A stretch of 32,398 nucleotides of DNA, taken from the NCBI GenBank assembly GCA_027083815.1, contig JALWMR010000224.1, positions 1-32,398 on the forward strand, given 5' to 3'. Source of the stretch: Thiotrichaceae bacterium. GTDB lineage: Bacteria; Pseudomonadota; Gammaproteobacteria; Thiotrichales; Thiotrichaceae. The notes beneath the pieces are model-generated. The model was not told the DNA's origin. It worked only from the letters and a program-made list of their open reading frames with translations, and searched no databases. The position numbers were made by a program, and so were the translations under genes. Shown piece by piece: positions 4,411-31,768 of the stretch. Position 1 is the stretch's first letter; the number at the start of each line of letters is the position of its first letter.

Positions 4411-4447
4411 AGAAAAGCCGTAAAAAGTAGGGGGGTGTACTTTTAAA
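4411..4447 (+). repeat. Dispersed G-tract dyad repeat, copy 1
   Basis: agaaaagccgtaaaaagtaGGGGGGTGTACTTTTaaa; between convergent genes. Confidence 0.85.
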
Positions 4448-4463
4448 TCCCTTTGCTTTCTCT

Positions 4464-6242
4464 CTAAGGCAATGCCATCAGCGATGGATACGCATAAATA
4501 TCCGTTTCCAGCGACCGGCTTATGTGATTTTGCACCGCACTTGCTTTTTTTACCAGCTCGGGATCTTTTGAATGCAGACTAACACTCAGTAATAAAGCTT
4601 CGGCTGAAATTAAAGAGCTATCGGAAATATGTGAAAGTTTTACACCCGGCGGCAATAGGCTATTTGTGTTCTCATGCCAGCTATTATTTATATAAAAGCG
4701 CTTCCAGGCTATTTTTGCGATTTGGCCGGCAATTTGTCTGATATTTGCATTATGAGTGGCAGCGCCCCACTTATCCAATCCCCAGGCAGTGGCTGCATAG
4801 TCATACAAAGTTCCTTCTTTTGCGTTAGAGGCCGAACGCCGCAGTGTTTTACCATTCCATAGCTTTAGCAAAAACTGGCTTAACTTGTCACCCGTGTTTT
4901 TTAAACCTGGATCATATTGCAGAGCACGCGCAAATGCCGCCAGAGTTAAACCATTCATACCTGATAGAAGTTTGGTATCACGTGGTATTACGCGGGTTTT
5001 ATTACGATGCTTTTTAAGCTTTAATTTTAAGGCTTTAATCTTTGCCCTGATTTTTTCAGAAGGTTGTTGCATTTTTATAACGAGCTGGTCGATGCTTCGC
5101 ACTTGTCGGGGCAGGTTTCCGGCAGGTAACTCACCGGCACGGTCCAGGTTCCAGTAAAGCTTGGCAAGTTTATATTCTTCTGCTGTTAATATTTTTTTCA
5201 GTTCTGAACGAGTCCATAGGTAATAACCGCCCTCTTCGTTTTTATCATCAACAGCTGATAAGCTGGAGATATAGGCGTTGCCGGAGCCGCGCATTTCTGC
5301 ATTTAAAAAGTTAATTGTTTCCAGGGCCACTTGCCGATATTGATCATTTTTATAAATGTCTGCCGCATCCAAATAGAGTAGTGGCATCATTGCATTCGTA
5401 TAAATCATTTTTTCAAAATGGGGAGTCTCCCAATCCGGATCAGTGACATAGCGAAAAAAACCGCCCGCAATTTCATCATGTAAGCCTTTGCTCATCATTT
5501 GATTTAAAGTGAGCTTGATAAATTCATCTGCTTCTTTATTCTTTTTGTGTTGGTTAAGTTTTAACAATGCCCATAACTGCGGGATCTGCGGAAACTTGCG
5601 TTGCTGCCCAAAGCCACCTTGCATGGTATCAGCATATTGCATGGCAGTTGATATATAGCGCCCACTTAGTTGTTGTATGGTGACTCCTTTGCTGGGGTGT
5701 TCCTGTTTTTGCAACATGGTGTTAAGCGTTTTAGACATCTCTTTTGCCTGCGCCACTAAACTGGGCTGATCTGCTTTCCACTTCTTGGCAAGTTGCCTGA
5801 GCACATTGGCAAAATGTTCGCGGGGCATATAGGTGGCCCCCACTAGTGGATAACCCTCTGGAGTAAGAAACACATTAAGTGGCCAACCGGCTGTTCCGTT
5901 GGTAATTTGCACAAATTCAATCAGGCGTTTGTCTAAAACAGGGTTTAACTCGCGATCGACTTTTACCGAGATATAATTTTTATTCAAAATTTTGGCAATG
6001 CCTTTATTTGAATAGCTTTCGCGTTGCATTACATGACACCAATGGCAGGAAAAATAACCAATTGAGACAAACAGCAATTTATTTTCTTTTTTTGCTTTCT
6101 CAATGGCAGGTTTGCCCCATTCCATCCAGTTAACCGGGTCATTTCCGTGCATGGCTAAATAAGGTGACGAATTATTTTTTAAATCATTAGCAAGTACGCT
6201 TTGCAAACTGATGAGAAGTAAAAAAGTTAGGAGTTTTTTCAT
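4464..6242 (-). CDS. Thioredoxin domain-containing protein, YyaL/DUF255 family
   Basis: NSSPYLAMHGNDPVNWMEWGKPAIEKAKKENKLLFVSIGYFSCHWCHVM and following (alpha/alpha)-barrel region; N-terminal signal peptide. Confidence 0.9.
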   Translation of the reverse strand: MKKLLTFLLLISLQSVLANDLKNNSSPYLAMHGNDPVNWMEWGKPAIEKAKKENKLLFVSIGYFSCHWCHVMQRESYSNKGIAKILNKNYISVKVDRELNPVLDKRLIEFVQITNGTAGWPLNVFLTPEGYPLVGATYMPREHFANVLRQLAKKWKADQPSLVAQAKEMSKTLNTMLQKQEHPSKGVTIQQLSGRYISTAMQYADTMQGGFGQQRKFPQIPQLWALLKLNQHKKNKEADEFIKLTLNQMMSKGLHDEIAGGFFRYVTDPDWETPHFEKMIYTNAMMPLLYLDAADIYKNDQYRQVALETINFLNAEMRGSGNAYISSLSAVDDKNEEGGYYLWTRSELKKILTAEEYKLAKLYWNLDRAGELPAGNLPRQVRSIDQLVIKMQQPSEKIRAKIKALKLKLKKHRNKTRVIPRDTKLLSGMNGLTLAAFARALQYDPGLKNTGDKLSQFLLKLWNGKTLRRSASNAKEGTLYDYAATAWGLDKWGAATHNANIRQIAGQIAKIAWKRFYINNSWHENTNSLLPPGVKLSHISDSSLISAEALLLSVSLHSKDPELVKKASAVQNHISRSLETDIYAYPSLMALP

Positions 6243-6329
6243 GGATAGCGCCGAATATCAATAAAGAATAGATTGGATAATAGCGAATAGATACGAAGGT
6301 TACCGGTATTTAGTTGCATTTTTACCTTA

Positions 6330-6406
6330 GAGACTTTTGCACAAAAGAAATGAGGGATAAATATTGCACTAATTTTTTTATCGTCATCTTCTTGTGCAAA
6401 GATCTC
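6330..6406. mobile_element. 77-bp MITE with the same terminal inverted repeat type as 473-630
   Basis: Left GAGACTTTTGCACAAAAGAAATGAGGGATAAA. Reverse complement of right GAGATCTTTGCACAAGAAGATGACGATAAAA. Flanks CTTA and GTTA. Confidence 0.75.
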
Positions 6407-6412
6407 GTTATT

Positions 6413-6447
6413 AAAGAAAAAGGCAAAAAAGGAGGGGGTGTACTTTC
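6413..6447 (+). repeat. Dispersed G-tract dyad repeat, copy 2 (5-G variant), upstream of aroC
   Basis: aaagaaaaaggcaaaaaaggaGGGGGTGTACTTtc. Confidence 0.8.
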
Positions 6448-6471
6448 ATAATATTCGCTATAATGCCATCT

Positions 6472-7572
6472 ATGTCAGGAAATACTTACGGAAAACTATT
6501 TACGGTGACCTCCTTTGGTGAGAGTCACGGCCCCGCCATTGGTTGTATTGTGGATGGCTGCCCCCCCGGGATGGAATTATCGGAGGCAGATATTCAAGGT
6601 GATCTTGACCGGCGTAAGCCAGGAACCAGCCGCCACACTACGCAGCGACGAGAAGCTGATGAAGTGCAGATATTATCAGGCGTTTTTGAAGGTAAAACGA
6701 CCGGTACGCCAATTGCGATGATTATTTACAATACCGATCAGCGCTCTAAAGACTATTCCGACATTATGGCCAGCTTTCGCCCAGGCCATGCAGATTATAC
6801 CTATTATAAAAAATACGGCTTTAGGGACTATCGAGGCGGCGGGCGCTCATCGGCGCGTGAAACTGCCATGCGTGTGGCCGCTGGCGGCGTTGCTAAAAAG
6901 TACTTAACAGAGCGATATGGCATAGAAATACGCGGTTATTTATCTCAGCTAGGTCCCATAAAGGCAGATAGCGTAGACTGGAATGAGATTGCCAATAATC
7001 CCTTCTTCTGCCCGGATGCCAGTAAGGTCGCTGAGATGGAAGCCTATATGGATGCACTGCGAAAAGAAGGTGAATCAGTTGGTGCTAAAATAACGACTGT
7101 CGCAACCGGGGTTATGCCGGGTTTGGGCGAGCCTATATTTGACCGGCTGGATGCAGACATTGCTCACTCAATGATGAGCATCAATGCGGCCAAGGGTGTT
7201 GAAATAGGTGCAGGTTTTGAATCAGTGACTCAAAAGGGCACGGTACACCGCGATGAAATCTATCTGGATGGCTTTGATGGCAATAATGCGGGTGGTATTT
7301 TAGGCGGCATATCTACAGGGCAGGATATTGTGGTGCATACCGCTTTTAAGCCAACATCAAGCTTACGCTTGCCGGGCAACTCAGTGAATATCCACGGCGA
7401 ACAAGAAGTAATTGTTACCAAAGGGCGACACGATCCCTGTGTGGGCATTCGTGCAACACCCATTTGTGAGGCACAATTGGCAATGACATTGATGGATCAT
7501 GTCTTGCGTCATCGTGCGCAGAATATGGATGTGGAGACCAGCTTAAAGGATATTCCCGCATCAAGAGATTAG
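6472..7572 (+). CDS. aroC: Chorismate synthase
   Basis: [33 protein letters not shown]... and [30 protein letters not shown]. Canonical N-terminus MSGNTYG places the start at 6472 rather than 6463. Confidence 0.97.
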
Positions 7573-7611
7573 ATAAAGGCCTGACTTCAGAAGGTAAATT
7601 AAGGAACGGAT

Positions 7612-8220
7612 ATGATAACGCGACTCTTTAAAATTATCTTAATGCTATTAGTATCGTCGCTTATATTATCGTGTTCGCCAACTTATAAAATTGCCCATGA
7701 TTTTACCCCACCATCTACTAAACGGGGTTTATCTTGTATATCTGGCTGCCAAAATAAGCTGAATCAGTGTAATTTACAGTGTGGTAATCAGTATCGACAA
7801 TGCTCGCTTCGTGCCGAACAACAGGCAAAAAAACAACTTCCTGCTCTGCTGCAAGCCTACCCTCATGAGCTGGAAATCTGGTTAAATGAGCGCGCTCGCT
7901 ATGAAAGAGATTTGGACTGGTATCAGTTTCGGGTTGATATGGCCGAGGCACGTTATGATCGTTATCTGGATCGCTGTTTGGCTAAGGGAAAAAAGAGGCA
8001 CACCTGTAGGAACAGCTTTAGTTACCGCAATGTACCGTATGAAAGACCTACGTTTAATATTCCCCGCCCGCAAAAGCCGACTCTTGCCAGCTTAACAGAC
8101 AAGATACGTAACAGTAGTTGCAGTTTGAACTGTGCTTGTCAGTCAGATTATCGTTTATGCTATACTAGCTGTGGTGGAGTGGTAAAATCAAAGAAAATTT
8201 GTGTCAAAAACTGTAAATAA
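7612..8220 (+). CDS. Cysteine-rich putative lipoprotein
   Basis: Signal plus lipobox LILSC; two Cys clusters (CISGCQNKLNQCNLQCGNQYRQC and CSLNCACQSDYRLCYTSC). Confidence 0.7.
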   Translation: MITRLFKIILMLLVSSLILSCSPTYKIAHDFTPPSTKRGLSCISGCQNKLNQCNLQCGNQYRQCSLRAEQQAKKQLPALLQAYPHELEIWLNERARYERDLDWYQFRVDMAEARYDRYLDRCLAKGKKRHTCRNSFSYRNVPYERPTFNIPRPQKPTLASLTDKIRNSSCSLNCACQSDYRLCYTSCGGVVKSKKICVKNCK

Positions 8221-8249
8221 TATCTTATACCCATAAGCAGAGCTTCTTT

Positions 8250-8284
8250 ATAAGTACACCCCCCACCTTTTTTGCCTTTTTCTC
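8250..8284 (-). repeat. Dispersed G-tract dyad repeat, copy 3
   Basis: + strand ataagtacaccccccaccttttttgcctttttctc, i.e. G-strand on minus. Confidence 0.85.
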
Positions 8285-8438
8285 CAATTGTTCAGTTTGT
8301 GTAAAGAAATCTCCATGTATATTGGAGAATAACCGTTTATCGGAAAGTGACGGTTAAAAATAAAGGTATAAGAACCGATTTTTATAAAAATACTCAAAGG
8401 TTCTGTAAAAAATAATAATACAAAAGGAATGTATAATA

Positions 8439-9167
8439 ATGAACAATAAACACATACTACGTCGATCTGGCTTCTTACAAACAACAGCACTCCTTTTCAT
8501 CCTGCTTTTTGCTCAGCAAGTGAATGCTTTGCAAATGAACCCTTTATCTGTTGTGGTGCGTCCCGCTGGTGGTGGAACAAAACAATCATTTCGGGTTACC
8601 AATGAAAGTAATCTGCCAATTGCAGTTCAGTTCAGCGTTAAAACACGGCAACAGGTGAATAATAAAGAAATCAGAAGGCCAGCTGATAGGGATTTTATGA
8701 TCTATCCTGCACAAACCATTATTCCACCTAAATCGACTCAAAAAGTACGGGTTGAGTGGCTGGGTGGCGGCAATGTGCCTCGTGAAAAAGCGTATCGTTT
8801 AATTGCTGAGCAGGTTAATGTTTCCCTGGGTAAAGAACAAACTGGTGTCAAAATGCTAATGACTTTGGTTGGCGCCCTCTATGTTCAGCCCAAAAATACC
8901 AGAAGCAATGTACAGGTAAGAGCAGTGCAGCGTCAGGGCAACAAGCTGGCAGTAACCTTGATGAATTCTGGATCACGCCATCAATTAATGAATTTTGCCA
9001 CACTAACCCTTCGAAATGGCAAGCGAGTTATAACACTAAAAGGCAAAGACCTTATCGGCTTAAGCGGTAACAATGTGTTGGCAGGATCAACAAAACGGTT
9101 TTTTATTCCACTACCCAAAGGCTTTGTGAATGGGCGCTGGCAGGGCTCAATAAAATATCCAAGGTAA
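8439..9167 (+). CDS. Fimbrial biogenesis periplasmic chaperone
   Basis: Signal peptide then LSVVVRPAGGGTKQSFRVTNESNLPIAVQFSV...FMIYPAQTIIPPKSTQKVRVEWLG; PapD-like architecture; followed by usher. Confidence 0.85.
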   Translation: MNNKHILRRSGFLQTTALLFILLFAQQVNALQMNPLSVVVRPAGGGTKQSFRVTNESNLPIAVQFSVKTRQQVNNKEIRRPADRDFMIYPAQTIIPPKSTQKVRVEWLGGGNVPREKAYRLIAEQVNVSLGKEQTGVKMLMTLVGALYVQPKNTRSNVQVRAVQRQGNKLAVTLMNSGSRHQLMNFATLTLRNGKRVITLKGKDLIGLSGNNVLAGSTKRFFIPLPKGFVNGRWQGSIKYPR

Positions 9168-9200
9168 TCATAGAAGCTAATTGATTATACAAGTGTTCAT

Positions 9201-12092
9201 GTGATTGTCATGAAACAGATAACAGCTATTAAGCCTTCTGCCTTTTTAAATATTGCTCAGATTATTTTCTGGCTGGTTTGCCTAAATGTCGCTTTCTTCC
9301 CTCTCGTTTCCTTTGCGAAAACGGCAGGGAAGCAGCAGACACAGGGCGCTAGCTATGATATGGCTGCGCTGTATCAACAGGCTTTTGGTAATAAAAAGAA
9401 AAAACAGCCATCTCGACACACCCCTCCCCCTTCTACACGTAAGTCTCAAAAAGTATTAGCGGCCAGCAAACCGGTAAAGCAATATGATTTAGCAGCATTA
9501 TATTCACAGGCATTTGGCAAGAAGCCATCGCGCTCTAGAAATACAAGAGAATCAAAACAGACAGAGAGTAAACAAAAGGACTTTGATCTTGATGCCCTAT
9601 ACGCCAAAGCCTTTGGCAAAAAGAGAGTGGTTGCGGCAGCTCCAAACCATGTTGATGTGGATTTACGAGTAAATAAAAATATCATGGGCGAAGTAACCGT
9701 ATTCAGCAGTGCTGCTGGAATGATCAATACGGTTGGTACAGAAAGCCTTTTAAACGTGCTAAAGGATGTACTCAAAGAACACATTTATAAAAGAATTAAG
9801 AAAAAAATAGCGGCAAAAAAGAAAATTCCCTTTAAGACATTGACCTTGTTGGGCATGAAGGCACATTACAATTCAGTAAATTTAAGTTTAGATTTACAAA
9901 TTAATCCCGCTTTGCGTAAACCACGCGTGTTATCCATGCAGAATAAGAAAAAGGTGAGTGTTCGAGATGAAAATAAAATAACAGCGGATGAAATTAGTGC
10001 TTTTTTGAATATGTATACCAGTGTGGGTCTGGACTCAGGTAGAGATAGCAGGGCTGATACCAAGGTAAAACTGGAAGGAAGCATTAATATTGATAATGTT
10101 GTATTGGAAAGCAGCGGAACCCTTAAAAATAGAAAGTGGGATATGGGTAGAACGAGACTGACTTATGATAAGCCAGATAAGCTACAACGTTTTGTTGTTG
10201 GTCATATTTCGACAGGCAATAGAAATTTCCAGGAAAACCTGGAGCTTACCGGCTTGAGGGTGAGTAAAGAATTCTTTATGAAGCCTGAGCTGCAAATAAC
10301 CCCCAAAGCTAATCAATCCTTTATTTTAGATACCGAATCCGAGGTTGAGGTTTATATCAATAATCAGCTACGCCAGCGGTTTTATCTTGAGGAAGGTATC
10401 TATTCATTAGAAGATATTGGTTTATATAACGGAGCAAACAACATCCTTGTAAAAATTACCGATGAGTTTGGTAAAGTTACCGAAAAAACCAGCACCCAAT
10501 ATTATGACTCTCACTTATTAAAGCCTCATTTATCGCTTTTCTCAATGAGCGTGGGTTATTTGAGTAACCAACAAGCGGTTAAAAATAACAAGCTGGAGAA
10601 TAAGCCAATTTTTAGTGGTTATTACCAGCGAGGCATTACCAAGAACCTCACAATGAGCCTGGATGCACAAATCAGTCCGAATAGTTACTTGCTGGGAGCC
10701 GAGGCGATTACATCTGTGCCTTTTGGCTCATTAAAAAACAGTATTGCTGTTAGTGGCGGAAGTGATAAGTCTACGGGCTTTGCAACAAGATTTGAGTTTA
10801 AGCCAAATATTCAGCGTCAAATAATTGGCCTGGATACCTTAAATGAAGATATGTTGCGTCTTGATACAGCGGTGGGAAAATTTGTCGATAGCTGGACTAT
10901 CTCTGGTGAATACCGCAGTGAAGATTTTTCGATGCTTAATCAGGATAATGCTTTGTTGTTATCCGGGCTTGATGATGAACAACTTAGAAATAAAAAGCTA
11001 AAGGCACGAATACAGACACATTTTGGTTTTGATCTGACACACAAGTGGCGTGGAAATTTAAGCCTAAGCGCTCAGAACTATTATGATAATAAATCAGCTT
11101 ATACGGCAAATTTGGCGGCAATAAAGCGCTTTAACAATGGTGTGCGCTTAGGTGTGGGGGCAAATTATGATAGCCGAGATGATTTTTCGGTTAGTTTGCA
11201 GGTTTCTATTCCGCTTTCCAGAGAAAAGGGTCGAAGGCGCAAAGATTTTGATGTCCTGACTAGCTCTAAAGATAAATCAATCAAAAGCAAATTTAGTGTA
11301 AAGCCCGGTAGTTATGTTGGTAAAAATAGTTTTGCTGGATCAGTTGAAGCGATTAAACGGGATAAATCAAATGAGCAGAAGCTGGATCTACGTTTTCGAC
11401 ATACCAATTTTGAAACAAACTTAATAGCGCGGAATCAATTGGATAAAGAGAATAAAAATTCTCAACAATTAAATATTGGTTTTAATACCAGCATTGCCTG
11501 TGTTGGCTCTAAATGTGCTTCAAGTTACCCGGTGAGTGATAGCTTTGCTTTGATATCGGGTCCTTCGAATCAGAATAGGCCGATTGCAGTAAATAATGGT
11601 CAGGCAAAATTCTTCTATTCAGATGAGAATTCAGGAATCCCTGATAATTACACCACGCTTATCAACAAAAAGGGAAGTACCGCCGTGGTTCCTTTAGAGT
11701 CATATCGTTATCAAAATATCAATGTAGATGAAAGCACCTTACCCAGTGGTTACGATGCAGAGAAAACTGAGTTTGAGGTCTTTCCTAGATATCATCAGGG
11801 CTTTATTGTTAAAGCAGGTGGTGAACCTGCCACAAGTCTATCGGGTGAGTTAATAAACTCTGGGCACAAACCATTAGGCTTTAAAGGTGGGCAGTGGGTG
11901 CCATTGAAAAATAAAGGTAAAACAATAGCCTTTTTCAGTAATAAAGCAGGTTTGTTCAGGGTGACATCTATCCCTGCAGGGCGCTACAAGCTAGAGTTGT
12001 TTGATTATCCGGATATGAGAGAAATTATAATTAATGTACCCGATAAGAAGGGCGGGGTACATGATGTGGGTAAATTGATCATTAATGAATAG
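9201..12092 (+). CDS. Outer-membrane fimbrial usher with an N-terminal repeat extension
   Basis: 963 aa; TcfC/usher-like beta-barrel core (SEVEVYINNQLRQRFYLEEGIYSLEDIGLYNGANNILVKITDEFG), C-terminal carboxypeptidase-regulatory-like segment; adjacent to chaperone and pilin genes. GTG at 9201 or ATG at 9210. Confidence 0.85.
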   Translation: MIVMKQITAIKPSAFLNIAQIIFWLVCLNVAFFPLVSFAKTAGKQQTQGASYDMAALYQQAFGNKKKKQPSRHTPPPSTRKSQKVLAASKPVKQYDLAALYSQAFGKKPSRSRNTRESKQTESKQKDFDLDALYAKAFGKKRVVAAAPNHVDVDLRVNKNIMGEVTVFSSAAGMINTVGTESLLNVLKDVLKEHIYKRIKKKIAAKKKIPFKTLTLLGMKAHYNSVNLSLDLQINPALRKPRVLSMQNKKKVSVRDENKITADEISAFLNMYTSVGLDSGRDSRADTKVKLEGSINIDNVVLESSGTLKNRKWDMGRTRLTYDKPDKLQRFVVGHISTGNRNFQENLELTGLRVSKEFFMKPELQITPKANQSFILDTESEVEVYINNQLRQRFYLEEGIYSLEDIGLYNGANNILVKITDEFGKVTEKTSTQYYDSHLLKPHLSLFSMSVGYLSNQQAVKNNKLENKPIFSGYYQRGITKNLTMSLDAQISPNSYLLGAEAITSVPFGSLKNSIAVSGGSDKSTGFATRFEFKPNIQRQIIGLDTLNEDMLRLDTAVGKFVDSWTISGEYRSEDFSMLNQDNALLLSGLDDEQLRNKKLKARIQTHFGFDLTHKWRGNLSLSAQNYYDNKSAYTANLAAIKRFNNGVRLGVGANYDSRDDFSVSLQVSIPLSREKGRRRKDFDVLTSSKDKSIKSKFSVKPGSYVGKNSFAGSVEAIKRDKSNEQKLDLRFRHTNFETNLIARNQLDKENKNSQQLNIGFNTSIACVGSKCASSYPVSDSFALISGPSNQNRPIAVNNGQAKFFYSDENSGIPDNYTTLINKKGSTAVVPLESYRYQNINVDESTLPSGYDAEKTEFEVFPRYHQGFIVKAGGEPATSLSGELINSGHKPLGFKGGQWVPLKNKGKTIAFFSNKAGLFRVTSIPAGRYKLELFDYPDMREIIINVPDKKGGVHDVGKLIINE

Positions 12093-12599
12093 CTATTGAG
12101 TAGTAACGACGACCGTAATAACATCCCGATAGTTGCCGGATTGGATAAATAAAGCAGGAAAAATATTTCCAAAAACAACTTGTGTCGGTGTGAACTGAAT
12201 ATTAGTTGGTAGCGTAGTACAGGGAATCGTAAGAGTTGGATTGCTTGTTCTGCCAAATTCTTGATTTTGATAAAGCACTTTGTACTTTGTAAGACTGTTG
12301 CCACTTACCGTGTGAAGTAGTTCGAAATTGTTTAAAGTTGAAAAGTTAAGATCGCAGTTTCCCCCTACATTGGATTCAAGCCCCATCGTTCCAAGATCAA
12401 CAACACTCGGAAATATCCAGTTTGCAATATCATTATTATCATATTGTCTGGAACTGCCTGGCGCTGTACCGGTTAACTTAACATACTCGGTATGAGTAAG
12501 AGTCAGTTCTATATCAGTTTGCCTTGTCTTTGCCTGGATAGATGCAGAGAAAACAGATAAAGATATACAGGCTACTAGCGTTTTAGCATTTATTATCAT
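12093..12599 (-). CDS. Pilin-like fimbrial subunit, paralogue of 12862-13350
   Basis: Signal peptide; TDIELTLTHTEYVKLTGT...DLGTMGLESNVGGNCDLNFSTLNNFELLHT...SGNYRDVITVVVTTQ aligns with the other pilin along its length. Confidence 0.75.
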   Translation of the reverse strand: MIINAKTLVACISLSVFSASIQAKTRQTDIELTLTHTEYVKLTGTAPGSSRQYDNNDIANWIFPSVVDLGTMGLESNVGGNCDLNFSTLNNFELLHTVSGNSLTKYKVLYQNQEFGRTSNPTLTIPCTTLPTNIQFTPTQVVFGNIFPALFIQSGNYRDVITVVVTTQ

Positions 12600-13469: not shown

Positions 13470-13504
13470 ACAAAACGCAATAAAAGGTGGGGGGGTGTAC
13501 TTTT
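13470..13504 (+). repeat. Dispersed G-tract dyad repeat, copy 4
   Basis: acaaaacgcaataaaaggtgGGGGGGTGTACTTTT; between convergent genes. Confidence 0.85.
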
Positions 13505-14655: not shown

Positions 14656-16164
14656 GTGAACCTTTCTGTTATTTATAGTCGCACTAATGATGGTGTTGAA
14701 GCGCCACAAGTTACTGTGGAAGTGCACTTAAGTAATGGCTTACCGGGCTTTTCCATTGTAGGTTTGGCTGAACTTGCGGTAAAAGAAAGTAAGGATCGTG
14801 TCAGGGCGGCAATTATTAATTCTAATTTTGATTTTCCTGCCAAACGCATTACAGTCAGTCTGGCTCCGGCTGATATACCAAAAGATGGTGGGCGTTTTGA
14901 TTTGCCTATTGCCTTAGGTATTCTTGCTGCATCTGGTCAGATACCAGCAGATAAACTGGATCAGTATGAGTTTATTGGTGAGTTATCACTGGGTGGGCAA
15001 TTAAGATCAGTAAAGGGAGTATTACCGACTGCATTCTCCGCTAATCAAGCAAAGCGCATGTTGTTTGTGCCGTTAGATAATGCGAATGAAGCAAGCTTAA
15101 TGAAATCATTGCCTGTTTATGCCGCAAATCATTTGCTACAAATATGCAACCATCTAGCGGATATAGAAAAACTATCCTTGTTTAGTGTCACTGCTGAAAA
15201 AAAGGAACCGGACTATTTAATTGATATTAATGAGGTTAAAGGGCAATTTCAGGCAAAGAGAGCCTTAGAAATTGCCGCAGCCGGGAATCATCATTTAATG
15301 ATGATTGGCCCGCCTGGTACAGGAAAAACCATGCTGGCAAAGCGCCTTGCAACAATATTACCACCGATGACAGAATCTGAAGCACTGGAGTCGGCAACCA
15401 TTGCTTCAATTAGTGACCAGGGTTTCAAGGTTGATAACTGGGGCTTACGACCTGTTAGAGACCCGCATCATACCTCATCTGGCGTGGCCCTGGTGGGCGG
15501 TGGATCTAAAGTCAGACCGGGTGAGATATCTTTGGCTCACAATGGCATTCTGTTTCTGGATGAGCTGACTGAGTTTGACCGTCGCGTTCTGGATGTGCTT
15601 AGAGAGCCTTTGGAAACAGGAGAAATAACAATTTCCCGTGCAGCGCGTCAAGCCACATACCCAGCAAAATTCCAGCTTATTGCAGCCATGAACCCGTGTC
15701 CACAAGGCTTGGATTGTGACTTTCGTAGTAATTGCCAATGTTCTATTGAACAACAACGACGTTATCGCTCTAAGCTTTCCGCCCCTTTTCTTGATCGCAT
15801 TGATTTGCAAATAGAAGTATTGCGTTTGCCAAGAGAGGATCTACAAAAGCCGGCGCAGGGTGAGTCTAGCCAGCAAGTGCGAGAGCGTGTTGTTGCAGCA
15901 CGAAAACATCAAATAAGGCGCCAGGGTAAGGCTAACCAGTTTTTGGGCAATAAAGAGATTGAGTCTGTTTGCACAATCAGTAAAGCTGATGAAGCATTGC
16001 TTGCACAGGTGATGGATAAGTTTAGGCTATCAGCTCGGGCTTATCATCGCATATTAAAAGTATCCCGAACCATTGCTGATTTGTCAGGTAGTGAGCAGAT
16101 AGAGACTAACCATATTAGCGAAGCGGTATCTTATCGTGCAATGGATAGATTGAATGCACGTTAA
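14656..16164 (+). CDS. comM: YifB/ComM family Mg-chelatase-like AAA+ ATPase
   Basis: VHLSNGLPGFSIVGLAELAVKESKDRVRAAI, Walker A GPPGTGKTMLAKRL, PRDPHHTSS-like motif and CPQGLDCDFRSNCQCS. GTG start. Confidence 0.92.
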   Translation: MNLSVIYSRTNDGVEAPQVTVEVHLSNGLPGFSIVGLAELAVKESKDRVRAAIINSNFDFPAKRITVSLAPADIPKDGGRFDLPIALGILAASGQIPADKLDQYEFIGELSLGGQLRSVKGVLPTAFSANQAKRMLFVPLDNANEASLMKSLPVYAANHLLQICNHLADIEKLSLFSVTAEKKEPDYLIDINEVKGQFQAKRALEIAAAGNHHLMMIGPPGTGKTMLAKRLATILPPMTESEALESATIASISDQGFKVDNWGLRPVRDPHHTSSGVALVGGGSKVRPGEISLAHNGILFLDELTEFDRRVLDVLREPLETGEITISRAARQATYPAKFQLIAAMNPCPQGLDCDFRSNCQCSIEQQRRYRSKLSAPFLDRIDLQIEVLRLPREDLQKPAQGESSQQVRERVVAARKHQIRRQGKANQFLGNKEIESVCTISKADEALLAQVMDKFRLSARAYHRILKVSRTIADLSGSEQIETNHISEAVSYRAMDRLNAR

Positions 16165-16186: not shown

Positions 16187-16224
16187 GAGAAAAGCGATAA
16201 AAAGTGGGGGGGTGTACTTTTAAA
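16187..16224 (+). repeat. Dispersed G-tract dyad repeat, copy 5
   Basis: cgagaaaagcgataaaaagtgGGGGGGTGTACTTTTaaa; between convergent genes. Confidence 0.85.
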
Positions 16225-21063: not shown

Positions 21064-21098
21064 TGAAAGTACACCCCCCTACTTTTTTGCGGTTTACT
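21064..21098 (-). repeat. Dispersed G-tract dyad repeat, copy 6
   Basis: + strand tgaaagtacacccccctacttttttgcggtttact. Confidence 0.85.
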
Positions 21099-21142: not shown

Positions 21143-21712
21143 CTAGCGTTTAACCTGAAAGCTCAAAGCATTTGTTTGCATTACAGTTTGGCCTGCTGGA
21201 TCAACGATTTTAACGGTTACCTGATGATTGCCAGCAGGTAGGTTTTGAAAATTGATCACTCGGGACTTGCTGGATCTGATTTTTTTGCCGTCTAGAGAGA
21301 ATAAGATTTTGTGCATTTTTTGCAAGGGAGGTTTAATACTTATCATGGCTGAAACATCACCATCCTTTGCGTTAATGACCTGATTGGGCTTTGGAGCCAG
21401 GAATTTAAGGCTAGTGTAACGGGGGGTAACAGCTTGGCTTCGTTTGTTTTTTCTGGTGGTTACCGTCTTGTTGGTAATTGAGGGAGCAGTATTTTTTAAT
21501 GGCTCAAGGGGCTTCCACTGATCTTTATAATTCTTAATGATAGTAATGGCAGGCAGGGATAAAGGTTGTGCATGAATATTTTGGGGCGGCTTATCACCGT
21601 ACTGTATAGTGCCGTTTTTAGCTCGCCACTTGAAGATACCATCTGCACTCAGGACGTTAACCATCAACAAGAATAATGCTAAAATAAAAATCAGTATAGG
21701 GCTCTTGTTCAT
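21143..21712 (-). CDS. DUF4124 domain-containing secreted protein
   Basis: Signal peptide then DGIFKWRAKNGTIQYGDKPPQN; C-terminal Ig-like segment. Confidence 0.75.
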   Translation of the reverse strand: MNKSPILIFILALFLLMVNVLSADGIFKWRAKNGTIQYGDKPPQNIHAQPLSLPAITIIKNYKDQWKPLEPLKNTAPSITNKTVTTRKNKRSQAVTPRYTSLKFLAPKPNQVINAKDGDVSAMISIKPPLQKMHKILFSLDGKKIRSSKSRVINFQNLPAGNHQVTVKIVDPAGQTVMQTNALSFQVKR

Positions 21713-22733: not shown

Positions 22734-22739
22734 AATTTA

Positions 22740-23963: not shown

Positions 23964-24467
23964 TTAGTTTTCGACAACCTTAAATTGAGATAAGCCATCA
24001 TTTGTTAGGCTATCTTTTACTTTATCAATATCTTCTTGTTTATGATAAGGCCCCAGACGTACCATATGAAGATTTTGTCCTGATTTGGTAACGCGAGATT
24101 CCATTGTAGCTCCGGGTAGGCCAATAGAGGATAATCTAACAAAAGTATCTAGAGCCTGCTCTTGATCTGGGTAAGTGCCTACTACAATATAGTAATTCTT
24201 CTTTGATAAATAAGATGTTTTCCTGGTCGGTGATTGCCTACTACTCGGTCTTGGTGGTGTTCGTGCACTTTTAGTTATGGTCGCTGGCTCTTGTAAACTT
24301 GGTGGTATGGTTAGCTTCTCGTTGACAGCAACCTCACTACTATTTTGACTGCTTTGGCTACTTTGATTTCCAAAGGTGGTCATCTTACGCATTGTACTAC
24401 ATGCTGACAAAACACTAATAGTCGTTAGAGCTACTGCCACACTCGTAACAAATTTTAATTTATTCAT
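23964..24467 (-). CDS. SPOR domain-containing lipoprotein at the rlpA position
   Basis: Lipobox LSAC; C-terminal SPOR-like YYIVVGTYPDQEQALDTFVRLSSIGLPGATMESRVTKSGQNLHMVRLGPY; no double-psi beta-barrel region. Confidence 0.8.
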   Translation of the reverse strand: MNKLKFVTSVAVALTTISVLSACSTMRKMTTFGNQSSQSSQNSSEVAVNEKLTIPPSLQEPATITKSARTPPRPSSRQSPTRKTSYLSKKNYYIVVGTYPDQEQALDTFVRLSSIGLPGATMESRVTKSGQNLHMVRLGPYHKQEDIDKVKDSLTNDGLSQFKVVEN

Positions 24468-24560
24468 TATCGTCCCCTTTAAAGATAATGGTTAGTTGTG
24501 ATTACTTCTAGTTGTCCTGCTTTTGAGTAAAGTTCTCTACTGCATTTTCAACAATTAAGC

Positions 24561-25574
24561 TTATTTATGTTTCAATAGCTTGCGCCGTTTTATTTCTCTT
24601 GCTAGCTGATAAATAGCCATTGCATACTTTGGGCTATGATTATAACGCGTAATCACATAAAAGTTATCACCTGTTATCCAGTATTCATACCCGCGATCGC
24701 CCTGCAGTTTTAATAATGCCACCCGTGTAGAATTAATATTAGAAACGGGCGTAACACCAAATTGAGCAAGTTGAGGCAGAGAATACTTTGGTTTAGCCGC
24801 ATCAGTTGTTGCAATGTTATCATAAAAACGGCCTTTTATCTGTGCTGGAACAGTAATATCACCATTGGGCTTCCAGCCATGTCGTGAAAAATAATTAGCG
24901 ACACTGCCAATAGCATCTTCAGGATGCCAAAGGTCTTTATGTCCATCACCATTAAAATCAATTGCAAAATTACGATAACTGCTGGAGATGAACTGCCCTA
25001 GCCCCATGGCCCCGGCATATGAGCCTTTTAGTGAAGCTGGGTTGGGAATTTTCTCTTCACGAATTAGGCGAAGATAATGGTCAAGCTCTTCCGTATAGAA
25101 GGATTGTCTTTTAGGAAAATCCATAGCTAAAGTGGTGAGGCTTCTAAGCACATTATGCTTGCCTGTATTGCGTCCGTAAAGTGTCTCTACACCAATGATA
25201 GCAACGATTATTTCTTCCGGAATACCATATTGCTGACTAGCTGCTTTTAAGGCGCGGTGATGTCTATTCCAAAAACTGACACCGACGTCAGCCCGCTCTT
25301 GTGTTAGAAATATCTTTCTATAAATATTCCAGGGTTTTGCCTCAGCAGGCGAGTTAACTTTTCTTAAAACGTCTTCGTCACGAGTTATTTTGGAGAAAGT
25401 TTGTAGAAGATAGTTTCTATTAAAGCCTTTTTGCTGCATCCGGTTAATAAATTTCTGCATGGCCGGGTAGGATAAATAAGAGCCTGTTTGCCTAACTTTA
25501 GACGGTTCGGCAAGTGTCAAATTGCTGAATGAAAGAAGTAATATGAAGCCTGTTAAGAAACGAAATGAAGACAT
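24561..25574 (-). CDS. mltB: Membrane-bound lytic murein transglycosylase B
   Basis: IVAIIGVETLYGRNTGKHNVLRSLTTLAMDFPKRQSFYTEEL...GSYAGAMGLGQFISSSYRNFAIDFNGDGHKDLW. Confidence 0.95.
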   Translation of the reverse strand: MSSFRFLTGFILLLSFSNLTLAEPSKVRQTGSYLSYPAMQKFINRMQQKGFNRNYLLQTFSKITRDEDVLRKVNSPAEAKPWNIYRKIFLTQERADVGVSFWNRHHRALKAASQQYGIPEEIIVAIIGVETLYGRNTGKHNVLRSLTTLAMDFPKRQSFYTEELDHYLRLIREEKIPNPASLKGSYAGAMGLGQFISSSYRNFAIDFNGDGHKDLWHPEDAIGSVANYFSRHGWKPNGDITVPAQIKGRFYDNIATTDAAKPKYSLPQLAQFGVTPVSNINSTRVALLKLQGDRGYEYWITGDNFYVITRYNHSPKYAMAIYQLAREIKRRKLLKHK

Positions 25575-26689
25575 TAGTGGTTTGACCTTTTTTTACGTTT
25601 ACGCATTCCCATAAGCAGACCAAAAGCGGCCATTAGGGTAACAAGTGAAGTGCCCCCATAACTAATAAGAGGGAGAGGAACACCTACAACAGGTAATACA
25701 CCGCTAACCATACCTGTATTTACCAGTAAGTATATAAAAAAAGTAAGGCTCAAACCGCCACCTAAAAGTCTTGCAAAGGTGTCTTCCCCCTTGGTTGCCA
25801 GATATAGACCTCTCCATATAATAAAGATATACAAAGAAAACAGAATCAAGTTTCCAAGCAGACCAAACTCCTCACCAAAAACAGCAAAGATAAAATCGGT
25901 ATGACGCTCAGGTAAAAAATCAAGCCGCGACTGATCCCCTTTTAGCCAGCCTTTACCATAAACACCACCAGAGCCAATCGCAATGGTGGATTGGATAATG
26001 TGATAGCCAGAGCCTAAACGATCTGCATCGGGGTTAAACAGAGTGAGAACTCTTTGCCGTTGGTAATCATGCATACCAAAATAAAAAATAAGTGGTGCGG
26101 CAATTATTCCAGCGATTAGAGTGGCCAATAGCCATTTCCATGGAAGCCCAGCGAAGTAAATAACAAAGAAGCCAGCACTTCCTACTAATAAAGCTGTTCC
26201 CAGGTCGGGTTGCTTTACAATTAACAACATGGGAATTACAACCAGCAAGCTGGCAATAAAAATATCTTTAAAGCTGGGGGGTAGGGTTTTTTTAGAAAAA
26301 TAGCTGGCAACCATCATTGGGACAGCAAGCTTCATCACTTCTGAAGGTTGAAACCGCAGGCCACCTAACTCAATCCAGCGTTGTGCGCCTTTACCCATTG
26401 ACCCTTGAATTAATACCAGCACCAGAAACAAAACACCGAAGGCATAAACCCAGATAGACCAGCGATTTAATATTTCACTGGATAGCTGGGTGGCAATAAG
26501 CATAATAGATGTGGCTAAAATCAAGTGAATAGTGTGTGTATTCATCATCGCCTGATTTTCACCAGTTGCGCTAAATAATGTAATTGTTCCCAGAAATATC
26601 AAAAGAATAATGGCAACGACCAATACTAGATCAATGGAGGTTAACCATCGAAGTAATAATTTGCTAAAATTAAAATCACCGGTGTTCAT
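25574..26689 (-). CDS. mrdB: Rod shape-determining peptidoglycan glycosyltransferase RodA
   Basis: SEDS family: GLRFQPSEVMKLAVPMMVA...LPERHTDFIFAVFGEEFGLLG...LPLISYGGTSLV. Confidence 0.96.
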   Translation of the reverse strand: MNTGDFNFSKLLLRWLTSIDLVLVVAIILLIFLGTITLFSATGENQAMMNTHTIHLILATSIMLIATQLSSEILNRWSIWVYAFGVLFLVLVLIQGSMGKGAQRWIELGGLRFQPSEVMKLAVPMMVASYFSKKTLPPSFKDIFIASLLVVIPMLLIVKQPDLGTALLVGSAGFFVIYFAGLPWKWLLATLIAGIIAAPLIFYFGMHDYQRQRVLTLFNPDADRLGSGYHIIQSTIAIGSGGVYGKGWLKGDQSRLDFLPERHTDFIFAVFGEEFGLLGNLILFSLYIFIIWRGLYLATKGEDTFARLLGGGLSLTFFIYLLVNTGMVSGVLPVVGVPLPLISYGGTSLVTLMAAFGLLMGMRKRKKRSNH

Positions 26690-26707
26690 TAAGCAGGTCT
26701 CATATTA

Positions 26708-28675
26708 TTAATTGGTTGCCCTTTTAGGTTTTTTCTTTTCTGTTTTCTGTCTTTTGATTTTATTGGCATTAATTAATGTGGGCGATGAGTCTGACGGTTT
26801 TTTGATATTCTCATCATTTTTTTCATTTTCTTTTGGATCAAGCAAATAGGTATCTAATAATTGTCGCGCTATTGGTGCTGCTACCTTACTTCCACCCCCG
26901 GCATTTTCTGCAATAATTGCTAAAGCAATCCGAGGGTTATCTACCGGTGCAAAGGCAACAAATAAGGCATGATCGTGTAATTTTTTTCGTAGTTTTGATG
27001 CGTTATAAGATTTATTTTGTGCAATACCAAAAACTTGAGCCGTACCCGTTTTACCAGCGAAACGATATTTGGCACCTGCGCCAGATCTTCTGGCTGTACC
27101 ACGCTCACCATGTACGACATTGACCATGCCACGAATAACATCATTCCAGTAGCGTAACTTAGTAACGCCAATGGAAGGCAGCTTCTCCGGTGTAACCAGC
27201 TTTTCGGGTAGATTTCTAGAGATACGAACAGCGCGTAATACATGGGGCTTAATGCGTCGCCCATGATTGGCAATGATAGCAACAGCGTTTGCTAATTGGA
27301 GTGGGGTGGCAGTGAAATAGCCTTGCCCAATCCCCATATTGACAGTATCTCCTGGATACCAGAATCTGTCATAACGTTTTCTTTTCCACTCCGGTGTGGG
27401 CATTAATGCTGTCCGCTCATGGGGTAAGTCAATACCAGTTTTTTGTCCAAATCCAAACTTTTCCATTCCTTTGGAAAAGCGTTTCACACCCATACGAAAG
27501 GCAAGATCATAGAAATAGACATCACAGGACTGGTAAATGGCGCGGTTTAAACTGATATGCCCATGACCTGATTTCTTCCAGCAGCGAAATCTGTGCCTGT
27601 TTCCGGGAATCTGAAAAAAACCTTTGCCATAAACTGAGCTACTAGGCGTTACCACTCCAGCATTAAGTCCAATTAATGCTGCCATGGGCTTAACTGTCGA
27701 GCCAGGTGGGTAAGAGCCTTGTAATGCACGATTATATAGAGGGCGATCAGGGTTGCTCCTTAAGGCATTATAGTGTCGATAGGAAATACCATCGACAAAT
27801 AGATTTGGATCATAGGTAGGCATGCTTGCCATGGCGAGCACTTCACCATTGCGTGGATCAATAGCAACAACGGCACCATTATAATCTTTAATTAATTCTT
27901 CGGCTTTGATCTGCAACCTAAGATCAATGCTTAAAAATAAGTCTTCGCCAGCGATGGGGGCCTGCTCAGCGAGCTTTAGTTGTGGTTTGCCGTGTGCATC
28001 AACCTCAATAACTTCATACCCTGCCTTGCCATGTAGGCGAGACTCATAATACTTTTCGATACCCGATTTACCAATATGAGTTGTACCTTTGTATTCATTA
28101 CTATCAACTTTTTTTAAATCTTTTTTATCAATGCGCCCTACATAACCCAATAAATGGCTGGCAACAGAGCCTAAAGGATAGTTTCTTTGCATTCTTACAC
28201 TGATTTTAAAACCGGGAAAACGAAAGCGGTTTTCCGAAAAAAGTGCTATTTCGTTTTCTGTCATATTTTGCCGCAAAACCACAGGTTGAAAACGGGAATT
28301 AACACGCAATTTTTGTTTAAATTTGTTCACCTCAAGTGGTGTGATAGGCAATAGTTGCATTAAGCGTTTTAAACTACCTTTCATATCACTGACATCATCT
28401 TCAGCGGCTTCTAACACATATTCTATGTGGTTATCCGCGAGCAATACGCCATTACGGTCATAAATTAATCCTCGTACCGGTGGAATGGGGATTTTCTTCT
28501 GATAGTTTTCTTTTGACTTTGCAGTGTAATAGTCATGATGGGTGACTTGTAAAAAAAATAGCCTGACAAAGACCAGTAACAAGGCTATAAACACCAAGAT
28601 GGCAGCAACAATTGCTCGTGATCGAAACAAACGGTATTCATCTCTTTCACTTTTTACCGTAACGCGTTTTTCCAT
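26708..28675 (-). CDS. mrdA: Penicillin-binding protein 2
   Basis: RGLIYDRNGVLLADN, YPPGSTVKPMAALIGLNAG, FAGKTGTAQVFG; adjacent to rodA. Confidence 0.96.
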   Translation of the reverse strand: MEKRVTVKSERDEYRLFRSRAIVAAILVFIALLLVFVRLFFLQVTHHDYYTAKSKENYQKKIPIPPVRGLIYDRNGVLLADNHIEYVLEAAEDDVSDMKGSLKRLMQLLPITPLEVNKFKQKLRVNSRFQPVVLRQNMTENEIALFSENRFRFPGFKISVRMQRNYPLGSVASHLLGYVGRIDKKDLKKVDSNEYKGTTHIGKSGIEKYYESRLHGKAGYEVIEVDAHGKPQLKLAEQAPIAGEDLFLSIDLRLQIKAEELIKDYNGAVVAIDPRNGEVLAMASMPTYDPNLFVDGISYRHYNALRSNPDRPLYNRALQGSYPPGSTVKPMAALIGLNAGVVTPSSSVYGKGFFQIPGNRHRFRCWKKSGHGHISLNRAIYQSCDVYFYDLAFRMGVKRFSKGMEKFGFGQKTGIDLPHERTALMPTPEWKRKRYDRFWYPGDTVNMGIGQGYFTATPLQLANAVAIIANHGRRIKPHVLRAVRISRNLPEKLVTPEKLPSIGVTKLRYWNDVIRGMVNVVHGERGTARRSGAGAKYRFAGKTGTAQVFGIAQNKSYNASKLRKKLHDHALFVAFAPVDNPRIALAIIAENAGGGSKVAAPIARQLLDTYLLDPKENEKNDENIKKPSDSSPTLINANKIKRQKTEKKKPKRATN

Positions 28676-28765
28676 GCCCCAGTTTGTATTATATATTCTT
28701 AAATAAACATGACATTATAACGCTTGTTTAGTTCAGGGGCACCATAAAGATAAAGTAGTGTTAGA

Positions 28766-28789
28766 TTCATTTTATCTTGATAAAATGAA
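28766..28789. promoter_or_regulatory. Perfect 11-bp-arm palindrome in the mrdA / DUF2058 divergent intergenic region
   Basis: TTCATTTTATC-TT-GATAAAATGAA. Confidence 0.6.
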
Positions 28790-28816
28790 GGCTTTGATAA
28801 TTTGAGATAAAAATAA

Positions 28817-29323
28817 ATGAGTTCATTGAGTGATCAATTATTAAAAGCGGGGTTTGTTAGCGAAGAACAGGTCAAAAAAGCGATTGAAAAAAAAATAAAG
28901 AAGCCAACAACGTATAAATCCAAAAAGACTGAAAAACGCGCTAAAAAGAAGCCTAAGCAAAAACATGAGGAGTCTGATTTAGCTAAATTTTATAGTGAGC
29001 GTAAGCAGCTTGAAAACAAAGAAAAGCAAGAAGCGAAGCGTAAAAAGGAAGAAGCGGCCCGAATAAAAAAAGAGACCAATGCGAAAATTAACAAACTGAT
29101 ACAAGATAATCTTCTAAATGATGATAAGGCAGAGATTCGTTTTAACTTTGTTGTAGGCACGAATATAAAATATCTGTTTGTGACAGAGCAGCAGCAACAA
29201 GACCTTATCGACGGCAAGCTGGCCTTCACTTTTCTGGGCGGTAAAAGGTGCTTAATTCCAGTTGTTACTGCTAATGAAATTTTGGCACTTAATCCACATA
29301 AGGTTGTTATCATCCCAAATTAA
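28817..29323 (+). CDS. DUF2058 family (YaiL-like) protein
   Basis: SSLSDQLLKAGFVSEEQVKKA...K-rich...AEIRFNFVVGTNIKYLFVTEQQQQDLIDGKLAF. Confidence 0.9.
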   Translation: MSSLSDQLLKAGFVSEEQVKKAIEKKIKKPTTYKSKKTEKRAKKKPKQKHEESDLAKFYSERKQLENKEKQEAKRKKEEAARIKKETNAKINKLIQDNLLNDDKAEIRFNFVVGTNIKYLFVTEQQQQDLIDGKLAFTFLGGKRCLIPVVTANEILALNPHKVVIIPN

Positions 29324-29443
29324 TTTTATTGATTAAGATCAATATTGTGATTTACAATGAACCAGTTTAAAAGCACTTGCGACTATATACCGTTGCAAAG
29401 TTTTTTTATTAATTATTACTATACAAGGATTGTGGAGAGAAAT

Positions 29444-29836
29444 ATGGGAATGCTTAAGGATTTTAAAGAGTTTGCACTGAGTGGCAACTTAATTGATATG
29501 GCAACGGGTATTATTATTGGTGTAGCATCGGGAAAATTAATCTCGTCCCTGGTCAATGATGTCATTATGCCACCAATCGGTGTCGCATTAGGAGGGGTGA
29601 ATTTCACTGAGCTTGGCTACAAGTTGGCGGATACCGGTGGTGGTGAAAAAGGCCTGGACCCTATTGAGCTTAAATACGGTGCATTTATTCAAAACTTTAT
29701 CGACTTTTTAATTATTATGGCTGTTGTATTTATTATTATTAAAGTAGCAACACGTAACAAGAAGGAAGAAGAACCAAAGGGCCCAACTCAGGAAGAGTTA
29801 TTAACTGAAATTCGTGATGCGCTTAAAAGTAAGTAA
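29444..29836 (+). CDS. mscL: Large-conductance mechanosensitive channel
   Basis: MGMLKDFKEFALSGNLIDMATGIIIGVASGKLISSLVNDVIMPPIG; start at 29444 preceded by GGAGAG. Confidence 0.96.
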   Translation: MGMLKDFKEFALSGNLIDMATGIIIGVASGKLISSLVNDVIMPPIGVALGGVNFTELGYKLADTGGGEKGLDPIELKYGAFIQNFIDFLIIMAVVFIIIKVATRNKKEEEPKGPTQEELLTEIRDALKSK

Positions 29837-29853
29837 GAAAGAATTCAGTTGCC

Positions 29854-29881
29854 AAAAAGGGCGCAGCATGCGCCCTTTTTT
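29854..29881 (+). terminator. Rho-independent terminator after mscL
   Basis: AAAAAGGGCGCA-GCA-TGCGCCCTTTTTT. Confidence 0.93.
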
Positions 29882-29930
29882 GTGCCTGAAAATAGTGTAA
29901 TATTCAAGTTCACAAACTAGATGGATCCTC

Positions 29931-31547
29931 ATGTCGCTCACCATATCTATTGCTCAGATTAACCCCACTGTTGGTAGCTTTACCGGCAACAATCAGTTGA
30001 TTATTGATGCCATTAATCAAGCCAAAAAAGATAAGGCCGATGCAGTTGTTTTCCCAGAGCTGGCTTTAACAGCTTACCCGCCGGAAGATTTGCTATTTCG
30101 CCCTGCTTTTTTGAAAAAGGTTGAAGTCTCCTTGCAGGAAATAAGTCAGCACTCAGATGGCATAACGGTCATTATCGGTGCGCCAGTCAAACGAGGTAAA
30201 AAGCTTTTTAATATGGCCTGTGTTTATCAGGATGGTAAATGTATCCATCAATATGCCAAACAACATTTACCCAACTACCGTGTTTTTGATGAAAAGCGCT
30301 ATTTCAGGCGAGGTAAAACAGACGGCATTATTACTATTGCCGGGCATAAGATTGGTCTGTTAATTTGTGAAGATATTTGGCGAGAGAAGCCAGCAGTTAA
30401 GGCAAAAAAGGCAGGTGCGGAAGCACTTATCGTTTTAAATGCCTCGCCCTTTAGAGCTGAGAAAACCAGCGAACGAATGGCTTTATTGCAGCAACGCTCC
30501 AGTGAAAATCAATGCCCCATCGTTTATGTCAACCTGGAAGGAGGGCAGGATGAACTGGTTTTTGATGGTGAATCGCTGATTTATGATTCAAGCGGCCAGC
30601 TTGCTTTTCAAGCGCCTAAATTCAAATCTGGCTTATTTACTCAGCCGATTCCTTTTAAGCCGGTCAAGCAGCCCTTAAAGCCTCTGCCCATTAATGTAGA
30701 AGCATGTATTTACAATGCCCTGGTTAAAGGAGTTAAGGATTATGTGCATAAAAATGGCTTCCCCGGCGTTATGTTGGGGCTTTCAGGCGGAGTTGATTCT
30801 GCCCTGACAATGGCAATTGCAGTTGATGCGCTCGGTGCCGAAAATGTAGAAGCTGTGATGATGCCGTTTCGCTATACCGCTGATATCAGTATTGCCGATG
30901 CAGCAAAGCAGGCGAAAACACAGGGCGTTAAATACCGTGAAATTCCCATTGAGCCAATATTTAACAGTTTTATGGAGGCATTGTCGGCGGAGTTTGATGG
31001 GCTTGAGCGGGATGTCACCGAAGAGAATATACAGGCCCGTTCACGTGGTGTGCTACTTATGGCAATGTCGAACAAGATGGGCAAAATGCTACTGGCAACC
31101 GGCAATAAAAGTGAAATGGCCGTGGGCTACGCCACCCTTTATGGCGATATGGCGGGCGGCTATGCACCGCTAAAAGATGTGTTTAAAACGTGTGTTTATT
31201 CACTGGCGCGCTACCGCAATAGTTTGGGAGATGGTGAAATAATCCCCGAACGCGTCATCACCCGACCACCCTCGGCCGAGTTAGCGCCTGATCAAATTGA
31301 TGAAGACTCCTTGCCACATTACGATATTCTGGATGCGGTACTTAGAATGTTTATCGAAGAGTTTCAAAGTGTCGCCGACATTGTGGCACAAGGTTATGAT
31401 GAAGAAACAGTGCGTCGCGTGGCAAACCTGGTATTGCTCAATGAATACAAGCGTCGACAATCCGCGCCGGGAGTGCGAATTACAAAACGCGCCTTTGGCA
31501 AGGATCGGCGCTATCCGATTACCTCACATTATCGCTGGTACTTATAA
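29931..31547 (+). CDS. nadE: Glutamine-dependent NAD+ synthetase
   Basis: N-terminal nitrilase domain (SIAQINPTVGSF, FPELALTAYPPEDLLFR) plus synthetase domain (GLSGGVDSALTMAIAVDALG, LLATGNKSEMAVGYATLYGDMAGGYAPLKD). Confidence 0.97.
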   Translation: MSLTISIAQINPTVGSFTGNNQLIIDAINQAKKDKADAVVFPELALTAYPPEDLLFRPAFLKKVEVSLQEISQHSDGITVIIGAPVKRGKKLFNMACVYQDGKCIHQYAKQHLPNYRVFDEKRYFRRGKTDGIITIAGHKIGLLICEDIWREKPAVKAKKAGAEALIVLNASPFRAEKTSERMALLQQRSSENQCPIVYVNLEGGQDELVFDGESLIYDSSGQLAFQAPKFKSGLFTQPIPFKPVKQPLKPLPINVEACIYNALVKGVKDYVHKNGFPGVMLGLSGGVDSALTMAIAVDALGAENVEAVMMPFRYTADISIADAAKQAKTQGVKYREIPIEPIFNSFMEALSAEFDGLERDVTEENIQARSRGVLLMAMSNKMGKMLLATGNKSEMAVGYATLYGDMAGGYAPLKDVFKTCVYSLARYRNSLGDGEIIPERVITRPPSAELAPDQIDEDSLPHYDILDAVLRMFIEEFQSVADIVAQGYDEETVRRVANLVLLNEYKRRQSAPGVRITKRAFGKDRRYPITSHYRWYL

Positions 31548-31573
31548 TTTTAGGTGTTTAATGAGTATTTCAG

Positions 31574-31610
31574 TAGAAAAGAGGCAAAAACTAGGGGGGT
31601 GTACTTTTAA
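31574..31610 (+). repeat. Dispersed G-tract dyad repeat, copy 7
   Basis: tagaaaagaggcaaaaactaGGGGGGTGTACTTTTaa, 26 nt after the nadE stop. Confidence 0.85.
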
Positions 31611-31730
31611 CTATTTAAATAGGCATCAAAATAGCTTAAAAGCGTCAGTTTTCAAGTCAAATACAATAAAAATAAGTCAAAAAGTACCTGATTTTGTTTC
31701 AATAAGTAATTTTAAGCCCAAAATAAGTAT

Positions 31731-31768
31731 AAAAAAGTACACCCCCCCACTTTTTGCCCTTTTTCTCC
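31731..31768 (-). repeat. Dispersed G-tract dyad repeat, copy 8, inverted relative to copy 7
   Basis: + strand aaaaaagtacacccccccactttttgccctttttctcc, ending 13 nt before tmcA. Confidence 0.85.

Follow-up and report, generated by a model that had tools for sequence, protein, structure and literature searches.

Self-specific uptake of DNA has been described in species of two families only, the Neisseriaceae, with their DNA uptake sequence (DUS), and the Pasteurellaceae, with their uptake signal sequence (USS) (PMC7811141), and ideas on the origin of such signals therefore rest on two cases. Inverted pairs of DUS form terminators (PMC3630211, PMC2397512). In five Pasteurellaceae 47-70% of the USS lie within genes, and neither DUS nor USS is reported to have a general bias in orientation (PMC2346458). 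Here we describe a repeat of 30-35 bp that occurs eight times in a stretch of 32,398 nucleotides from a Thiotrichaceae bacterium (assembly GCA_027083815.1, contig JALWMR010000224.1, positions 1 to 32,398; the whole stretch is referred to as the window). The repeat belongs to a motif family restricted to the genus Cocleimonas, in which each lineage has its own spelling, and its resemblance to DUS and USS makes it a probable DNA uptake signal of this genus.

The source genome, G000, is a Cocleimonas metagenome-assembled genome (MAG) of the Thiotrichales, a 2.78 Mb draft in 254 contigs. It was compared with the other Cocleimonas genomes (twelve in all, G000-G011) and with 51 genomes from seven other genera of the family, some of these assemblies being fragmentary. 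Genome-wide counts were controlled with the pattern read backwards. Reading at sequence level covered 23% of G000 and about 10% of G003, in stretches picked partly because copies were present.

Abundance, architecture and dialects

The exact core GGGGGTGTACTT occurs 521 times in G000 (258 forward, 263 reverse), the reversed control giving 0; a genome-wide scan that found only the few copies of the window would have counted against the original prediction. In 324 kb of this genome there are 72 perfect and 11 one-mismatch cores, most of the latter being clear variants of the element; control words gave 0-2 one-mismatch matches in the same 324 kb. The consensus of 135 copies is GAGAAAA-gggc.-AAAAAGt.-GGGGGGTGTACTTTTtAa, with about 49 bits of information. 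The order is thus an A-tract, about 10 bp, a second A-tract, a G6 core and a dialect tail; both A-tracts, their spacing and the core are fixed, and the linker between the A-tracts is free. The motif supplies the top k-mers in the sampled DNA of G003, G004, G007, G011 and G002, and is among the top ones in G009, so that, as with DUS and USS, it is the most over-represented oligomer and its copies are near-perfect. A minority of the G000 copies form the end of a longer repeat of about 110 bp (L056:1632-, L082:6979+, L039:13481-, and window positions ~4370-4430), which has hairpins of the type GCGACGACTACCCGNAGGGTGGC between AGAAAAGGGC and AAAAAG and looks like a family akin to repetitive extragenic palindromic (REP) elements fused to the motif.

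The named contigs that bear the motif come from Cocleimonas MAGs. The word AAGTRGGGGGGTG is found 913 times in G007, 879 in G003, 651 in G004, 620 in G011, 289 in G008 and 237 in G000, against 0-1 in the controls, and it is near absent outside the genus, with 0-4 copies in the 51 genomes of the other genera. A second dialect, AGGGGGGATGGGT, has 392 copies in G002 and 124 in G009, and none in the other ten Cocleimonas genomes. A small third set is present in G010, for the most part spelled AAAACnnCGAAAAAAGRGGGGGG; a few copies with the same architecture are present in G001 and G005, and no copy was found in G006. In a tree of ComEC, G002 and G009 form a clade with support 1.0, and G003, G007, G008 and G011 one with support 0.997. 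The dialects thus follow phylogeny, as is expected of DUS and USS.

Some other repeated words were seen in the same genomes. In G011 (L153, L156, L157), and in related form in G004 (L158, L159), a repeat, TTCGGCAAGCTCAGCACGAGTCATTTCGACAGGCTCAAT, stands after some of the motif copies. Another dispersed repeat, GAGACCTTTGCACGA, is found in G005 (L240-L242), with similar words in G000 (L046, L107), and is seemingly common to Cocleimonas species; G010 (L243-L245) has a repeat unit with the words AGATAGGCCTTGGTTGGTTACACT, in 24 copies in 60 kb. In the sister-genus genome G014 (L268-L271) the word CCAGTTACAATCACTCGA is over-represented, parts of it having 7-14 copies in 80 kb, and could be a dispersed repeat or a signal proper to that genus.

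Genomic position and change in place

Copies are rare within genes. A home-made gene caller, whose calls are approximate, puts 7 of 126 G000 copies (6%) and 10 of 93 G003 copies (11%) in genes, where coding sequence makes up 82-83% of the DNA; some copies do lie in genes, then, but far fewer than the coding fraction predicts. Of the outcomes that would have told against the original prediction, neither equal frequency inside genes nor a match to a repeat or terminator family already described was thus seen. The density in G000 is 2.37 elements/kb between convergent genes against 0.65/kb between divergent genes. Relative to tandem genes, the copies of G000 show no orientation bias (28:27) and those of G003 do (29:12, p=0.01). 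Among unpaired copies the G strand coincides with the G>C strand in 57 of 93 cases in G000 (61%) and in 49 of 67 in G003 (73%, p=2e-4); in neither G011 nor G007 does the preference reach significance.

The predicted folding of single copies hardly exceeds that of shuffled sequences, whichever strand is taken (mean z -0.06 to -0.8). Inverted pairs, by contrast, give near-perfect predicted hairpins, of -36 and -56 kcal/mol. The pairs of G003 meet at their A-tracts, those of G000 mostly at their TGTACTTTT ends. Inverted pairs usable as terminators, a feature of DUS and USS, are therefore found here at the level of their presence and predicted folding.

Sites persist between species and can be respelled where they stand. 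The clearest case is a gene that we take from its family to be COG1565/midA-like (it has no NCBIfam match), in which the motif occupies the same codons in six of nine species: it is spelled GTGGGGGGGTG in G000, G003, G007 and G011 and GGGGGGGGATGGGT in G002 and G009, is absent from G001 and G008, and leaves at most a remnant in G004. Similarly, the window copy upstream of aroC has a counterpart in G002 at the same place and in the same orientation, in the other dialect (GGGGGGATGGGT). Over about 20 kb compared between G003 and G007, by our reading each of the seven G003 copies is matched in G007 by one in the corresponding gene or intergenic region, often with a conserved right flank and with a left arm that has diverged or been swapped. 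At one such site (L223:15214+ / L254:6874-) the core and right flank are common to both genomes and the left arms are different, the G007 arm AAAACGTAATATCATTC being a module that recurs at other copies. When all dialect genomes are taken together, copies show a modest positive association with orthologous gene ends (odds ratios 2.1 and 3.9), the counts being small.

For the in-gene copies of G003 in tsaB, ubiH, dus and a response regulator, alignment with homologues shows no gap where the motif stands, and these copies therefore arose by substitution. G003 has a copy in polB in common with G007 (96% identical); it lies inside an insertion of 9 residues relative to G009. Some in-gene copies of G000 resemble additions of the whole element. 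Occurrence in genes by substitution in permissive places, as in DUS and USS, is thus seen, yet in-gene copies are only 6-11% of the total.

A probable uptake signal and its rivals

The original prediction listed a DNA uptake mark, unranked, as one of four options. It is now the best supported of these, by the dialects, the maintenance of sites in situ, the in-gene substitutions, the inverted pairs and the competence genes, with the uptake function itself argued by analogy. We favour it because the motif is over-represented in a genome-specific way, has dialects that match phylogeny, is respelled at orthologous sites, enters coding sequence by substitution, prefers permissive regions, forms inverted pairs and has a core flanked by AT-tracts, a combination much like the profile of DUS and USS. 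ComEC and DprA are each encoded in 11 of the 12 Cocleimonas genomes, and G000 encodes a type IV minor pilin (C32:5183-5509) with a ComP_DUS domain (PF16732, E=2.7e-20). Such pilins occur in 9 of the 12 genomes of the genus and in none of 14 control genomes.

The repeat would then be a double-strand recognition signal of 30-35 bp for the DNA uptake machinery of the type IV pilus, most likely bound by a minor pilin of the ComP type, which would read, from one face of the helix, two A-tracts separated by one turn and the G6 core with its dialect tail. DNA bearing the motif would be taken up and recombined more often, and copies would accumulate. A copy could be born by mutation in a tolerant place, mostly a 3' flank and sometimes a protein loop, and spread through the population; as the specificity of the receptor drifted, all sites would change dialect in place. 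Inverted pairs may additionally serve as intrinsic terminators. We lean, slightly less firmly, towards the wider proposal that environmental gammaproteobacteria have evolved, independently of the two known cases, a third DNA-uptake-sequence system, in which one genus has several dialects, the signal is a composite (A-tract/A-tract/G6) of greater length than those known, and the specificity of the receptor evolves so quickly that hundreds of sites are rewritten where they stand. Such a lineage would place species with the signal, without it and with different dialects side by side in an environmental genus, and would allow tests of the origin of signals, of the joint change of receptor and signal, and of uptake signals as barriers to gene flow.

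A number of results weigh against an uptake signal. Four Cocleimonas genomes have few or no copies. The information content, 36-49 bits across the logos, is more than a 12-bp DUS could hold, and the share of copies in genes, 6-11%, is low against 47-70% for known USS. The absence of strand bias, a regularity of known DUS and USS though not part of their definition, does not extend to G003, where the G strand is on the G>C strand by 49:18. Some left arms are repeated modules, and at one conserved site the arm has been exchanged between G003 and G007, which a simple model does not predict. The orthologous association reaches p=0.10 for 3' flanks and p=0.01 for 5' flanks. The ComP_DUS pilin also occurs in most sister-genus genomes, and ComEC and DprA in members of the genus that are free of the motif; because they are present where the motif is absent, these three genes do not discriminate. 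Finally, no uptake or transformation data for Cocleimonas were found, nor, within an incomplete coverage of the literature, any paper on repeats in the genus.

The most serious rival, which we nevertheless consider unlikely, is that the copies are sites of a chromosomal protein (a nucleoid, segregation or recombination protein, or a factor for bidirectional termination or insulation) kept at the 3' ends of genes by ordinary selection. A nucleoid-protein or partition site, another of the four options, falls under this rival and is a lesser possibility. Such sites would account for the mostly intergenic placing, for the ~2.4 against 0.65 elements/kb between convergent and divergent genes in G000, and for the persistence of sites between G003 and G007, and the leading-strand bias of the G strand in G003 recalls Chi or the FtsK-orienting polar sequences (KOPS). 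Chi and KOPS, however, are short words often found inside genes, and seven sister genera as well as some Cocleimonas species lack the motif. Hundreds of sites have switched specificity together at least once within one genus, which is hard to explain for a host factor with hundreds of selected sites; were this explanation the right one, that coordinated respelling would itself be surprising.

It is less probable still that the repeat is a mobile family, like REP elements and their paired forms (REPIN) or like miniature inverted-repeat transposable elements (MITE), moved in trans by a transposase, its conservation reflecting a recent origin. In keeping with this are the short intergenic copies in their hundreds, the inverted pairs, the ~110 bp forms with REP-like hairpins, the repeated left arms and those G000 in-gene copies that look like insertions of the whole element. 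A search of G000 for the Y1_Tnp transposase of REP elements (RAYT, PF01797) gave 0 hits, and the copies share no flanks outside the motif, their linkers varying while the core is constant. The in-gene copies of G003 arose by substitution, and one site can carry different dialects in different species. Mobilisation in trans, another of the four options, is accordingly disfavoured. Terminal repeats of insertion sequences were set aside, no systematic search for transposase-bounded copies having been made. A viral origin was rejected, the 15 core matches in IMG/VR being without the rest of the element and looking like chance. An element acting in RNA at the 3' end, as a transcription terminator or for stability, is the least probable of the rivals. 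The perfect hairpins of inverted pairs and the association with gene 3' ends speak for it; against it, single copies, which are the majority, fold no better than shuffles, the orientation to tandem genes in G000 is even, and a search of the window against Rfam matched no known RNA family. The option of a 3'-end RNA element is thus unsupported for single copies. The dyad was also considered as an RNA stem and rejected, since it is not conserved and single copies do not fold.

The window copies and the known systems

The window holds eight exact copies of GGGGGTGTACTT, five on the + and three on the - strand, where 100 shuffles give an expectation of 0.00; a search with 2 mismatches found no additional copy. 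Copy 1 (4411..4447, +; AGAAAAGCCGTAAAAAGTAGGGGGGTGTACTTTTA) lies between convergent genes ending at 4346 and 4464, its left part being the end of a longer hairpin-bearing form. Copy 2 (6413..6447, +) is between divergent genes, 16 bp upstream of aroC (6463), and copy 3 (8250..8284, -) is between tandem genes, with its G strand antisense to both. Copies 4 (13470..13504, +) and 5 (16187..16224, +) are between convergent genes, the latter directly after a YifB/ComM-type gene (14656-16164). Copy 6 (21064..21098, -) is 3' of the gene at 21143-21712(-), with the G strand co-directional. Copy 7 (31574..31610, +), 3' of nadE (29931-31547), forms a convergent pair with copy 8 (31731..31768, -), which is upstream of a gene starting at 31782. 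Between 8439 and 13350 there is an apparent fimbrial-type operon, with a chaperone, an usher (963 residues, weak PefC/AfrB match) and two small secreted proteins.

Much of the original prediction for the window holds. The eight copies are in place with mixed orientation, all are intergenic by the open reading frame listing, the copies at 4411, 13470 and 16187 are between convergent genes, and all except copy 2 lie in the 3' flank of a gene. The flanking consensus agrees with the earlier description, and the irregular spacing and mixed orientation, with no regularly spaced direct repeats, are as described and unlike clustered regularly interspaced short palindromic repeats (CRISPR). Contrary to the original claim, the G tract is not the only variable part: the linker of 5-6 bases from one A-tract to the other varies, as do the two positions just ahead of the G-run. 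Nor is the proposed AAAGTA/TACTTT dyad a trait of the family, most copies having GTG or GGTG in place of GTA.

Compared with known systems, the motif is like Chi and KOPS in being G-rich, in occurring about once per 5 kb and in an apparent leading-strand bias in one species, and unlike them in being long, mostly intergenic and divided into dialects within one genus. With REP/REPIN it shares short length, intergenic placing, hundreds of copies and inverted doublets; neither the Y1 RAYT transposase in the genome nor an imperfect palindrome or hairpin in each unit is found, and dialects change in situ at orthologous sites. The USS of the Pasteurellaceae (PMC7811141, PMC2346458) likewise have a G-containing core with AT-tracts, two types in different subclades, and in-gene copies that use existing codons. 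The Cocleimonas motif differs in its G6 core, in having 6-11% rather than 47-70% of its copies in genes, and in the strand bias of G003. The A-tracts of USS are 3' of the core, and those of Cocleimonas are 5' of it. The DUS of the Neisseriaceae (PMC3630211) are unrelated in sequence, 12 bp long as against 30-35 bp with A-tracts, and less intergenic; common to both are near-identical copies numbering in the hundreds to thousands, dialects that agree with phylogeny, a placing in permissive regions, inverted pairs that form, or in Cocleimonas may form, terminators, and the presence of a minor pilin of the ComP family.

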